Below, one piece after another: positions 2,438 through 5,238 of a stretch of DNA of 12,428 nt. The position numbers were made by a program, and so were the translations under genes. Source of the DNA: Desulfobacteraceae bacterium. Lineage in GTDB: Bacteria > Desulfobacterota > Desulfobacteria > Desulfobacterales > Desulfobacteraceae. Within the stretch, counting starts at the first letter, position 1, and every line of letters starts with the position of its first letter. Below the pieces are notes generated by a model, which saw nothing but the letters and a program-made list of their open reading frames with translations, was not told where the DNA came from and ran no database searches. Location: the NCBI GenBank assembly GCA_024225895.1, contig JAAEMC010000202.1, positions 1-12,428 of the forward strand, read 5' to 3'.

Positions 2438-3715
2438 TTACAGTCCTGATGCCTCTCTTTTCAGATCAGTTGATGAGAGGGTGTCCTTCGCGCTGGCGAC
2501 TCGAATGAGGTATATGGCAGCTCCAAGACCGCAGGTGAGAAAAAACAGGCCTGCATGAATAAGGGCGGATGGTACGCCCGCCCGGTCAGTCTGCCATCCC
2601 AGCACAGGGCCCAAAATTGCAAAAGCAAAGCGAATGATCAGGTTTCTTACAGACAAAACCGTGGCCCGGATGTCCGAAGGTATGATTTCGTTGATCTGGT
2701 TCCTGAGCACAGGAGTAGCAACGCCGCGGACACCATAAAAGGCAAAAAGGAAGATCAAACCCATGGCACTGCCGGTAAATCCCATGAGAAGATAGCCACC
2801 GGCAATGCCCAGGGCGATTAATATCATTATGCTGTTTCGGCCAATTCCTTTTTCCACTCGCCAGGCATTCATGGAAACAAAGCCTGTCAGCAGGTTGAGC
2901 AGGGGAATAAGTATGCCGTACCAGGCCAAAGGCAGCACAAGATAGGCAAAATAGGGCTGAACAAACCAAGCCATGGTCAGTGTGGCCGTCCCCATGAGGG
3001 ACGAAAAGAGAATGGCGGCCCGAAGGCCTTTGTGGTCTTTTACAGTATACCGGACAATGACCAGTATCTGGCTAAAACTGGTGTGACCCCGCATTTTTTG
3101 GCGGGTTGGTTCAACCAGAGTCAGGGCGGCTGGTACGGCGGCAAAAGCGACGATGGTCTGGAAGAAAAACGGGGTCCGAAGGCTGATCATCGCGATTAGG
3201 ACGCCCAGGGGGGCAGCCACTGCTTCTGCAAAATTACCGGCTGAGATCATCCTTCCCTCTTGCTTAAGATAGTCTTTTTCATTGTTTGCGGCCTGAAGGC
3301 TGTCGTAAAGCAATGCGGAATCGGAACCTGATATAAAACTCTGGCCGATGCCCAGAATGATTTCACAGATCAGAAAAGTCCAGAAACTGGTTGCCATGCA
3401 ATACATGGCAAATCCGGCAAACCCCATGATACTCCCCAGAATCAATGAGTTTTTTCTACCCCATACATCTCCCAGATAGCCGGACGGAACCTCCAGTACA
3501 ACAATGGAAAAGGAGTATACGGCCTTGAGTATAAACAGATCCTGGGTGGCCAGTCCGTTTTCCCTGTAAAAAAGGAAAAGGATGGGCATAGTCAGCATCA
3601 GCCACTTGGACAGTTTGATGATGTATAGGCGGATTATATTGCCTTTTGCAGCCCGGAACACTTCTTTTTCCCTCATTGAATTAAAATTGGGGAACATATC
3701 ATATTTACCAGGCAT
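2438..3715 (-). CDS. MFS transporter, 12 TM
   Basis: The 425-residue product is strongly hydrophobic, with about twelve membrane segments separated by a polar central loop (around residues 200-225, rich in Arg, Lys and Gln). Between segments 2 and 3 it has GYLGDVWGRKNSL (about residues 79-91), the classical MFS motif A (GxLaDxxGRkxxl). The length is normal for the family. Transport substrate cannot be predicted; a drug or metabolite exporter is the usual guess. The start is uncertain: no Shine-Dalgarno lies at a proper distance from the first Met (3715), the nearest GGAG being about 20 bases away, and Met14 is an alternative with no better site. The gene is convergent with the carbonic anhydrase and divergent from the tetR gene, but a repeat element and over 500 bp separate it from tetR, and its upstream region has no copy of the operator seen at tetR and acsA. 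It is therefore probably not a member of that regulon. Confidence 0.85.
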   Translation of the reverse strand: MPGKYDMFPNFNSMREKEVFRAAKGNIIRLYIIKLSKWLMLTMPILFLFYRENGLATQDLFILKAVYSFSIVVLEVPSGYLGDVWGRKNSLILGSIMGFAGFAMYCMATSFWTFLICEIILGIGQSFISGSDSALLYDSLQAANNEKDYLKQEGRMISAGNFAEAVAAPLGVLIAMISLRTPFFFQTIVAFAAVPAALTLVEPTRQKMRGHTSFSQILVIVRYTVKDHKGLRAAILFSSLMGTATLTMAWFVQPYFAYLVLPLAWYGILIPLLNLLTGFVSMNAWRVEKGIGRNSIMILIALGIAGGYLLMGFTGSAMGLIFLFAFYGVRGVATPVLRNQINEIIPSDIRATVLSVRNLIIRFAFAILGPVLGWQTDRAGVPSALIHAGLFFLTCGLGAAIYLIRVASAKDTLSSTDLKREASGL

Positions 3716-4157: not shown

Positions 4158-4186
4158 TTGACACAAACGTAACCAGCAATTATTAT
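4158..4186 (+). promoter_or_regulatory. Sigma70-type promoter of the tetR gene
   Basis: A perfect -35 box TTGACA (4158-4163) and a -10 box TATTAT (4181-4186) are separated by exactly 17 bp, in AT-rich DNA, 38 bp before the tetR start codon. Transcription should begin near 4193, inside the operator at 4188-4202. This is the best promoter in the window. Confidence 0.75.
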
Positions 4187-4187
4187 T

Positions 4188-4202
4188 GTGGCTGACGGTC
4201 AT
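4188..4202. promoter_or_regulatory. Operator copy a (tetR promoter)
   Basis: The sequence GTGGCTGACGGTCAT includes the perfect core TGACGGTCA and is one of five copies of a 15-bp dyad with consensus GTGGCYGAYGGTCAC. It directly follows the -10 box and covers the predicted transcription start, the typical place for a repressor to block initiation. Binding by the adjacent TetR protein is an inference from position. Confidence 0.6.
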
Positions 4203-4223
4203 AATATGAATGAATAGGAAAAT

Positions 4224-4835
4224 ATGGGGATAGCAGAAAGAAAAGCAAGGGAGTTTGAAAGACGGGAGAGGGAAATCCTTAATGCCGCCTTTAAATTGTT
4301 TATGGAAAAAGGACCGGATGCCGTGACCAATGAGATGATTGCCAGGGCATCGGAGATCGGCAAAGGAACCATTTACAAGCATTTTAAGTCAAAGAATGAT
4401 ATTTATGCGGTATTGCTGATTGAACAGGTTGAAAAAATCCACCGTTTTATTAAAAATCACCTGGATTCGAAGGCAGATGTCATCGATCAGATGAGCCAGT
4501 TTATGCTGCTCCACCTGTCCTTTTATGATGCAAATCCGGGTTCTTTTAAAATCTGCTATGAATTCCGTCGCTTTATTACTGATGACAGCCTTGACCCGGC
4601 CGTTGCGGAGCGGTATGAGGATATGTACCGCAGAAAAAACTTTTTGCTGCAGAAAATATTTGAAAAGGCACTGGATATGGATCTTGTTATTGACCTGCCG
4701 CCTGCGGATCTGACCATACTGGCATCTGGAATGTTTTTGGGCGCTATCAATGAGATGCCTAATGAGTTTATCTCCAGCCGGGAGGTGATTAATGCCACTA
4801 TTGTGGAGAGTGTTATCAAAAGCCTTTTAAAATAG
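4224..4835 (+). CDS. TetR/AcrR-family transcriptional regulator
   Basis: The 203-residue protein has the usual length and layout of the family: a basic N-terminus, a first helix (ILNAAFKLFMEKGPDAV, about residues 18-34), then the helix-turn-helix VTNEMIARASEIGKGTIYKHF (about 34-54), where IGKGTIYKHF is the typical recognition helix. The C-terminal 140 residues are the variable ligand-binding and dimer domain, so the effector cannot be read from sequence. The start at 4224 has only a weak AGGAAA site (4216-4221) but fits the domain start. The gene has its own strong promoter with an operator on the transcription start, and the same operator occurs four times before acsA just downstream. I infer that it represses itself and controls acsAB; it may alternatively regulate other genes outside the window. 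Confidence 0.9.
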   Translation: MGIAERKAREFERREREILNAAFKLFMEKGPDAVTNEMIARASEIGKGTIYKHFKSKNDIYAVLLIEQVEKIHRFIKNHLDSKADVIDQMSQFMLLHLSFYDANPGSFKICYEFRRFITDDSLDPAVAERYEDMYRRKNFLLQKIFEKALDMDLVIDLPPADLTILASGMFLGAINEMPNEFISSREVINATIVESVIKSLLK

Positions 4836-4870
4836 ATATCCGGAACAATAGCATGACAAGGCCCATGTTG

Positions 4871-4944
4871 GTTTGTACGGGTTTTGCTAAGACAAACATC
4901 CTCCGGATAAAAGATGTTCCGGCTGGAATAGGATAGAGCCGGAA
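4871..4944 (+). promoter_or_regulatory. Cluster of overlapping hairpins after tetR
   Basis: Three stems follow each other: GTTTGT (4871-4876) with ACAAAC (4892-4897); AACATC (4895-4900) with GATGTT (4913-4918); and TTCCGGCT (4917-4924) with AGCCGGAA (4937-4944), a perfect 8-bp stem with a 12-base loop. Neighbouring stems share bases (4895-4897 and 4917-4918), so they cannot all form in full at once. The segment may be the 3' end of the tetR transcript or a structured leader. I do not recognise a known riboswitch class. Confidence 0.35.
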
Positions 4945-4956
4945 GTGTTAAACCAT

Positions 4957-4984
4957 ATGCAGGAAGGGTAACTGCATTTTTTTT
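4957..4984 (+). terminator. Hairpin plus T-run, first copy (end of tetR unit)
   Basis: ATGCAG (4957-4962) pairs with CTGCAT (4972-4977) around a 9-base loop, followed by an unbroken run of eight T (4977-4984). The stem is short, so termination may be partial. It is the first of two related hairpins with the same TGCAG/CTGCA core; the second is 170 bp downstream. Confidence 0.45.
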
Positions 4985-4994
4985 GAATTTTTGC

Positions 4995-5009
4995 GTGGCC
5001 AATGGTCAC
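4995..5009. promoter_or_regulatory. Operator copy b
   Basis: GTGGCCAATGGTCAC is the most symmetrical copy of the 15-bp dyad (only one transition-type mismatched pair). A further TGGCC half-site follows at 5014-5018. It is paired with copy c, 36 bp downstream centre to centre. Confidence 0.55.
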
Positions 5010-5030
5010 AAAATGGCCGTTGTCTTAAAT

Positions 5031-5045
5031 TTGGCCGATGGTCGT
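5031..5045. promoter_or_regulatory. Operator copy c
   Basis: TTGGCCGATGGTCGT is a weaker copy of the dyad, 36 bp from copy b. A strong AAAGGAG (5057-5063) follows, but only a 13-codon reading frame (5065-5106) starts there. Confidence 0.45.
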
Positions 5046-5121
5046 AAACTGAATATAAAGGAGAATGCTTAAACATAGCAACCGTATAACCCGGTTAATG
5101 ATCTGACCGGCAATACAATTG

Positions 5122-5154
5122 AAATTGCAGAATAAACGAACTGCAATTTTTTTT
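5122..5154 (+). terminator. Intrinsic terminator or attenuator before acsA
   Basis: AAATTGCAG (5122-5130) pairs perfectly over 9 bp with CTGCAATTT (5141-5149) around a 10-base loop, and the T-run reaches 5154. This is a good intrinsic terminator for any transcript that starts upstream, yet it lies 85 bp before the acsA start codon. Transcription of acsA must therefore begin after it, or readthrough must be regulated. Confidence 0.6.
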
Positions 5155-5164
5155 GAACCTGAGT

Positions 5165-5179
5165 GTGGCTGGCGGTCAC
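5165..5179. promoter_or_regulatory. Operator copy d
   Basis: GTGGCTGGCGGTCAC is a dyad copy followed by a TGGCT half-site (5184-5188). It corresponds to copy b with an exact 170-bp shift. A weak TTGAAC (5153-5158) is the only -35-like hexamer nearby. Confidence 0.55.
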
Positions 5180-5200
5180 AAAATGGCTATTAGAAATTCT

Positions 5201-5215
5201 GTGGCTGCTGGTTGC
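5201..5215. promoter_or_regulatory. Operator copy e
   Basis: GTGGCTGCTGGTTGC is the most diverged copy, 36 bp from copy d and corresponding to copy c with a 170-bp shift. It ends 14 bases before the acsA ribosome binding site (AAGGAG, 5228-5233). Confidence 0.45.
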
Positions 5216-5238
5216 GTAATGAATCTTAAGGAGAAACC

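Follow-up and report, generated by a model that had tools for sequence, protein, structure and literature searches.

A palindromic operator shared by a clade of TetR-family regulators is predicted to place a CO dehydrogenase gene, cooS, of a Desulfobacteraceae bacterium under local repression

A gene encoding a 203-aa TetR-family protein, located immediately 5' of the CO dehydrogenase gene cooS in a Desulfobacteraceae genome, very probably specifies a local, autoregulated repressor of cooS and, through presumed read-through, of the acetyl-CoA synthase gene acsAB. Copies of a 17-bp dyad precede both tetR and cooS, the arrangement is conserved in a second genus, the dyad is associated with a clade of TetR proteins, and it is absent before cooS at the 28 loci examined that are devoid of such a tetR. 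The DNA analyzed, hereafter the window, is one whole contig of 12,428 nt (JAAEMC010000202.1) from a genome assembly in 1184 contigs that is 81% complete.

Genes and dyad sites of the window

The tetR product contains PF00440 over residues 18-62 (54.8 bits vs a cut-off of 24); TetR_N was the only domain returned by the Pfam scan, which found no CRP/FNR, PAS or LytTR domain. Its AlphaFold model (10 helices, pLDDT 89.1) adopts an all-helical two-domain fold, and the top PDB matches were TetR-family proteins. The gap between cooS and acsAB is 104 bp, and their co-transcription is thus likely. In the matrix scan of the window, no site scoring at least 7 was found anywhere 3' of position 5200, and acsAB is therefore without an operator of its own. 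No full-length match to the CODH/ACS gamma subunit was found in the incomplete window genome (best E 3.4e-15, residues 320-446). A gene with a weak LCIB_C_CA match (beta carbonic anhydrase-like) is located at 1108-2265, near the CODH/ACS genes.

A sequence-only reading of this DNA had described five copies of a 15-bp operator. All five 15-mers are present, at 4188, 4995, 5031, 5165 and 5201, and positions 2-5 (TGGC) and 10-12 (GGT) are identical in 5/5 copies. They were said to occur nowhere else in the window, which has to be amended, as a sixth match with 2 mismatches lies at 3591 on the − strand, inside an MFS gene. When up to 3 mismatches were allowed, the 15-bp pattern had 6 matches in the window against 0.56 expected, and none of 200 shuffles reached 6. 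Only three of the five copies are strong. They form a 17-bp dyad, TGTGRCYNNYRGTCACA, at 4187, 4994 and 5164, and score 20.8-22.2 with a matrix that was itself built including these three sites; when 4 Mb of random sequence with the dinucleotide make-up of the window was scored on the dyad matrix, 18 was never reached. The copies at 5030 (12.7) and 5200 (10.8) are weak and near chance, with 0.14 and 0.55 such sites expected per window, and they are without independent support since the equivalent place in Desulfospira scores 2.6.

Table 1. Features predicted in the tetR–cooS–acsAB region of the window.
Feature	Position	Strand	Basis or remark
tetR promoter, sigma-70-like, TTGACA-17-TATTAT	4158..4186	+	consensus scan, 11/12 matches
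Predicted operator O1, TGTGGCTGACGGTCATA	4187..4203	+	score 20.8; begins 37 bp 5' of tetR ATG
tetR, 203-aa TetR/AcrR-family regulator	4224..4835	+	Pfam TetR_N 7.7e-15
Promoter/operator module A (extra copy): T8 tract, O2, terminal Shine-Dalgarno-like AAAGGAGAA	4976..5057	+	
Predicted operator O2, CGTGGCCAATGGTCACA	4994..5010	+	score 21.5
Weak copy, TTTGGCCGATGGTCGTA, 36 bp 3' of O2	5030..5046	+	score 12.7
Promoter/operator module B, immediately 5' of cooS	5146..5234	+	duplicate of module A
Predicted operator O3, TGTGGCTGGCGGTCACA	5164..5180	+	score 22.2
Weak copy, TGTGGCTGCTGGTTGCG, 36 bp 3' of O3	5200..5216	+	score 10.8, chance level
cooS/acsA, Ni-CO dehydrogenase catalytic subunit, 676 aa	5239..7269	+	TIGR01702 4.6e-182, above cut-off
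acsAB, CO-methylating acetyl-CoA synthase, fused alpha/beta, 737 aa	7374..9587	+	NF007078, NF040764, E=0

Promoters and the duplicated cooS leader

The copy at 4188 had been placed on the tetR start site. The start codon of tetR is in fact the ATG at 4224, and this copy lies directly 3' of the −10-like hexamer of the predicted promoter, so that O1 would cover the transcription start. The end of O1 is separated from the start codon by 20 bp, which would be the normal place for the predicted autorepression. The same promoter element, TTGACAC...TTATTA, was found 5' of tetR in Desulfospira. The simple promoter scan, which gave 8 promoter-like matches against 3.0 expected, reported no consensus promoter 5' of cooS itself, and repression of cooS is thus proposed from the position of the sites.

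Modules A and B share 60 of 92 aligned columns, operators included, and none of 2000 base shuffles aligned as well. Module A was also found to align with the Desulfospira cooS leader. Both O2 and O3 have a T8 tract on one side and, on the other, a block, AAAATGGC, shared with this leader. Because the promoter module is duplicated, a weak copy occurs 36 bp 3' of each strong site, and these two copies appear to behave as degenerate leftovers of the duplication. A set of five equal operators was ruled out, the two near-chance copies having come with the duplicated module.

Two other elements were observed in this region. A small hairpin followed by T8 lies 5' of each cooS module, at 4955-4985 (ATGCAG/CTGCAT) and 5120-5154 (TTGCAG/CTGCAA), and resembles an intrinsic terminator; both hairpins were read by eye, the scan admitting loops of 3-8 only and omitting both, and the computed fold shows the first. 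At 5057-5110, an ATG opening a short frame of ~13 codons comes after the terminal Shine-Dalgarno-like sequence of module A, AAAGGAGA; this frame may encode a leader peptide or else be a remnant of the duplication. The search for RNA elements in the leader returned one Rfam match only, below threshold (16.4 vs 34 bits).

Conservation of the locus in Desulfospira joergensenii

Sites conserved 5' of the acsA and tetR orthologues of related genomes had been named by the sequence-only reading as support for its proposal, and Desulfospira joergensenii DSM 10085, a member of the Desulfobacteraceae, keeps one site 5' of each gene. On its contig C1 (NZ_ATUG01000001.1), tetR (68% identical) is followed by cooS (85% identical), in the order of the window. 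The site TGTGGCTGTTAGTCACA begins 37 bp 5' of tetR, the same distance as O1, and the cooS leader contains TGTGACCAATGGTCACA, whose half-sites form a perfect palindrome, in the same setting, T8...GGTCACAAAATGGC. Predicted palindromic operators are thereby found 5' of tetR and 5' of cooS in two genera, and it is from these two loci only that the DNA context of the window-type TetR is known. In the 6.1-Mb Desulfospira genome, the tetR and cooS sites were the only zero-mismatch matches to TGTGRCYRNYRGTCACA, a degenerate pattern that was itself drawn from the tetR/cooS sites. O1-O3 and both Desulfospira sites are near consensus, although much of the flanking sequence has diverged.

Acetyl-CoA synthase, which the sequence-only reading had counted among the targets, does not appear to be the conserved one. 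The only acsAB match in Desulfospira (85%) lies at C1:920079, ~740 kb from tetR–cooS, and no site above 13.3 was detected in the 18-kb region around it, the 13.3 site being within a coding frame. Since acsAB is located elsewhere and without the operator in this genome, the conserved target of the TetR protein is predicted to be cooS, not ACS. The Desulfospira acsAB gene belongs to a full Wood-Ljungdahl cluster (C1:912000-930000, L188), behind a second cooS (76%), and the cluster also holds the genes for formate-tetrahydrofolate ligase and for the CODH/ACS delta and gamma subunits.

cooS loci with and without the tetR gene

Thirty cooS loci were compared, which were the best matches from a family in which 64 of 86 genomes had matches. 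A window-type tetR gene was present at two of them, and both bear sites. Among the 28 other loci, no site scoring at least 15 with the five-site matrix was found, and none 5' of cooS, three of these loci (L156, L165, and L167) comprising only ~300-460 bp 5' of cooS. The best site, at L162 (14.7 with the five-site and 15.7 with the seven-site matrix), is inside the coding frame of a gene lying 3' of cooS.

In the CooS tree, the tetR-linked pair from the window and Desulfospira forms its own clade (100/100), adjoining three orphan CooS genes without neighboring acsAB. These sister loci (genomes G092, G086, and G084) have no such tetR and no operator 5' of cooS. The orphan CooS genes at L204, L205, and L206 adjoin genes for small conserved proteins and nucleotide-binding proteins, and the latter, named by eye, look like metal-cluster carriers.

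The operator in a wider TetR clade

Thirteen homologues, all 203 aa long, share 56-76% identity with the window TetR. Orthologue searches returned hits in 2 of 86 genomes of the family at 1e-40, in 2 of 389 genomes drawn evenly from the class at 1e-34, and in 10 of 389 genomes drawn from the order at 1e-28, among which only the window and Desulfospira proteins were close; up to 8 candidates per genome were scored in the latter two draws. Scanning of genome contigs yielded 174 relatives, and the 80 best of these included one close orthologue, from Desulfospira. No TetR relative was found in PLSDB at 1e-20.

Eleven loci encoding more distant relatives (30-37% identity; L052-L058 and L199-L202) were chosen by protein similarity, one of them being a paralogue from the window genome (C1001). 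They were scanned with a matrix from the five CODH-linked sites only, up to 150 bp 5' and 250 bp 3' of tetR, at a threshold of 14 that was set after scans at other thresholds. The operator was found 5' of tetR in 10/11 loci with scores of 19.9-24.0, the eleventh (L058) being without upstream DNA. It was also found 3' of tetR in 10/11 loci with scores of 14.1-23.7, two of which (14.1 and 14.3) are barely above the threshold, and the miss, L053, scores 10.0. The paralogous tetR gene of the window genome has a zero-mismatch site 22 bp 5' of its start codon. None of 22 non-clade TetR loci reached 14 (best 7.2). Unlike the window locus, none of 11 PvrA-like loci had an operator of at least 14 near tetR, the best site, at L075, being barely below (13.7); this is a weak test, as PvrA may not regulate itself, and in this set the solved PvrA sequence has a close counterpart only in L063, HTH likeness being the ground for labelling the remaining ten.

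An MMPL/RND transporter gene is next to tetR in 10 of the 11 relatives, and the contig of the remaining one (L057) ends ~350 bp after tetR. By Pfam content, one of these operons continues with LolA_like and DUF1302 genes. These loci resemble the window in dyad, protein family and tetR–target gene order, whereas their target is a membrane transporter operon and not cooS. The left half-site is TGTGAC in the transporter-linked loci vs TGTGGC in the CODH-linked ones, and the second operator lies 31-135 bp from the tetR stop codon vs 161 and 168 bp. The sequence TGTGACYNNYRGTCACA was observed 5' of tetR in the transporter-linked clade, and usually also 5' of the transporter gene. No description of this clade was found in the portions of the open-licence literature covered by our search.

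Five further loci with the dyad, from Gammaproteobacteria, Magnetococcales, Gemmatimonadales, and Elusimicrobia, have it before tetR in four cases and after tetR in all five. They were drawn from a scan in which 13 of 80 loci scored at least 14.5 with a seven-site matrix, and they illustrate rather than test the association because they were picked for sites already shown there.

In a tree of 64 TetR rows, one clade (100/100) unites the window-type proteins, which account for 15 rows and 14 distinct sequences, two of them with known gene neighbors, and the transporter-linked proteins are placed near it, deeper forks not being firm in this midpoint-rooted tree. Three PvrA-like rows (L063, L065, and P0036) branch separately and belong to neither the window group nor the transporter groups. 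With the midpoint root, the site-less PvrA-like rows branch off between groups that have the operator (93/87, not firm), and an old operator consequently requires a loss in these rows. Judged from the loci scanned, the operator belongs to a clade of TetR proteins in which one branch is directed at cooS. With this caveat about the PvrA-like rows, the simplest history suggested by the sequences combines an old operator with a cooS target newly gained in this branch. The locus provides a clear case of an operator that is kept with a different target gene, which is more instructive than a new target.

Proposed regulation and alternative explanations

From the sites and their placement, we infer binding, repression, co-transcription and response to an effector as follows. 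A dimer of the 203-aa TetR protein would bind the 17-bp dyad; at O1 it would sit over the transcription start of tetR and repress itself, and at O2/O3 it would block the two duplicated promoters before cooS, lowering CooS and, by presumed read-through, AcsAB. DNA binding would be released, or strengthened as reported for PvrA, when a small molecule occupies the C-terminal domain. The operator would be common to a clade of TetR proteins whose targets are for the most part MMPL/RND operons, the target having become CO dehydrogenase in this branch. A dedicated local repressor of the acetyl-CoA synthase/CODH genes had been suggested by the sequence-only reading. The link between site and regulator is supported: the site travels with the TetR gene, being kept in Desulfospira and missing 5' of cooS at the 28 tetR-less loci examined. 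The operator is not dedicated to CODH, however, because the same dyad serves paralogous transporter-linked TetR proteins, one of them in the same genome.

This paralogue raises the question of whether the cooS sites are mainly bound by the transporter-linked TetR of C1001, or by both proteins, in a shared network without a dedicated regulator. The operators found at its own gene, TGTGACTGACGGTCACA and TATGACCGATAGTCACG, score 24.0 and 18.4 with the matrix of the CODH-linked sites, and the two proteins have an identical recognition segment, GKGTIYKHF. However, Desulfospira keeps the sites while its next-best TetR relative reaches just E=3.2e-15 at 27% identity (25/25 candidates scored). Moreover, position 5 of the dyad is G in 4/5 CODH-linked copies vs A in 21/21 of the best transporter-linked sites listed from the 11 loci, a difference that could separate the sites of the two TetR proteins. 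We therefore consider such a shared network improbable. The TGTG...CACA half-sites superficially resemble those of CRP-type sites, and the dyad might be a site of CooA, HcpR or another CRP/FNR protein with tetR nearby by accident. Sites of CooA and HcpR were predicted before CO or prismane genes in other delta-proteobacteria, but the 16-bp CooA consensus given in the same account, TGTCGGCNNGCCGACA, has another half-site and another length parity than the dyad (PMC545781). The dyad also accompanies members of the TetR clade whether their neighbor is a transporter or a CODH gene, and is absent from the 22 non-clade TetR loci and from the DNA 5' of cooS at the 28 tetR-less loci, which makes a CRP/FNR site very unlikely. 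Equally little credence can be given to repeated sites being a functionless by-product of duplicated sequence. Modules A and B are clearly duplicated, and the two weak copies look like degenerate leftovers, but the strong sites of both genera stay near consensus within diverging flanks, and the same dyad recurs at loci with a different target gene.

The preferred reading is thus that of a local autoregulated repressor. A more speculative extension, to which we assign a rather low probability, is that a transporter-type TetR was captured by a CODH gene, keeping its operator and acquiring a new sensor domain for the state of the acetyl-CoA pathway, which would respond to acetyl-CoA or another CoA thioester, or to CO or a metal via the branch-specific residues His97 and Cys111. 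If true, sulfate reducers would have a TetR-type CODH regulator distinct from the CO regulators of the CRP and PAS types.

Sensor domain and relationship to PvrA

The nearest solved relative of the window TetR is PvrA (profile E 5.2e-35; next chain 8e-18), which is also among the closest folds to the window TetR model, with 27-29% identity in Foldseek alignments. The segment IGKGTIYKHFKSK is identical in the two proteins, and PvrA entry 8hjb was solved with coenzyme A. PvrA is a TetR-family protein of Pseudomonas aeruginosa that is described as responding to palmitoyl-CoA (PMC10418997, PMC12323585), and its ligand is stated to promote DNA binding (PMC12323585). The targets described for it in the text available are fatty-acid, PQS and PHA genes, unlike the predicted target cooS of the window TetR, and it is reported to activate as well as repress (PMC10418997, PMC12323585). 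Since the nearest solved relative is acyl-CoA-responsive, a CoA thioester linked to the pathway is our leading guess for the effector. The sign of regulation is not certain, because PvrA is reported to bind DNA more strongly with its ligand and both to activate and to repress. His97 and Cys111 are kept in 14/14 window-type proteins, and the three nearest outside proteins have His97 in 0/3 and Cys111 in 1/3; a role of these residues in sensing is a guess.

Comparison with known CO regulators

CooA senses CO with a heme. It belongs to the CRP family and, in Desulfovibrio and Rhodospirillum, also controls CO dehydrogenase genes; it differs from the window TetR in protein family, in its site and in being an activator that senses CO (PMC545781). 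In Geobacter sulfurreducens, the gene of the regulator RcoM is immediately 5' of a cooS operon, as tetR is in the window, but RcoM is a PAS-heme and LytTR protein, unlike the window TetR (PMC4703632). The CO regulators encountered in the open-licence texts covered were CooA, RcoM, CorQR, CoxC, and CutR. In those on Carboxydothermus pertinax and Calderihabitans maritimus, CO-responsive TetR genes adjoin a symporter or an efflux system. The genome paper of Desulfobacterium autotrophicum contains no whole-word TetR. No regulator of Desulfobacteraceae CODH/ACS genes was described in the excerpts of the open-licence literature searched, which is no proof of absence in print. A TetR regulator of acsAB had been considered new in the sequence-only reading. 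No TetR protein for cooS or acs was found in these excerpts, in line with that view, but the conserved target is cooS. The predicted regulator is an ordinary autoregulated local TetR repressor in kind, with a target new to the literature searched. With a base-defined site and a cultured relative, Desulfospira joergensenii DSM 10085, its regulation and effector are directly testable.

Further occurrences of the dyad

The short core TGGCNNNNGGTCA shows no genome-wide enrichment, occurring at 29 places vs 33 for the reversed control. With up to 2 mismatches, 39 sites were found in the window genome vs 43 in the reversed control, and 40 in the Desulfospira genome vs 57. Because these counts do not exceed those of the control, we do not propose a wider regulon. 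Two Desulfospira sites, C1:1219782 and C1:2260316, are located within coding frames. In the window genome, sites with up to 1 mismatch beyond those of the window and C1001 were C748:1515, in a coding frame, and C933:165 and C103:4481, both 5' of reading frames. The C933 site (L190:165), TTTGACCAACGGCCACA, scores 19.6 with the seven-site matrix and ends 116 bp 5' of a 109-codon frame, which is a possible further target.
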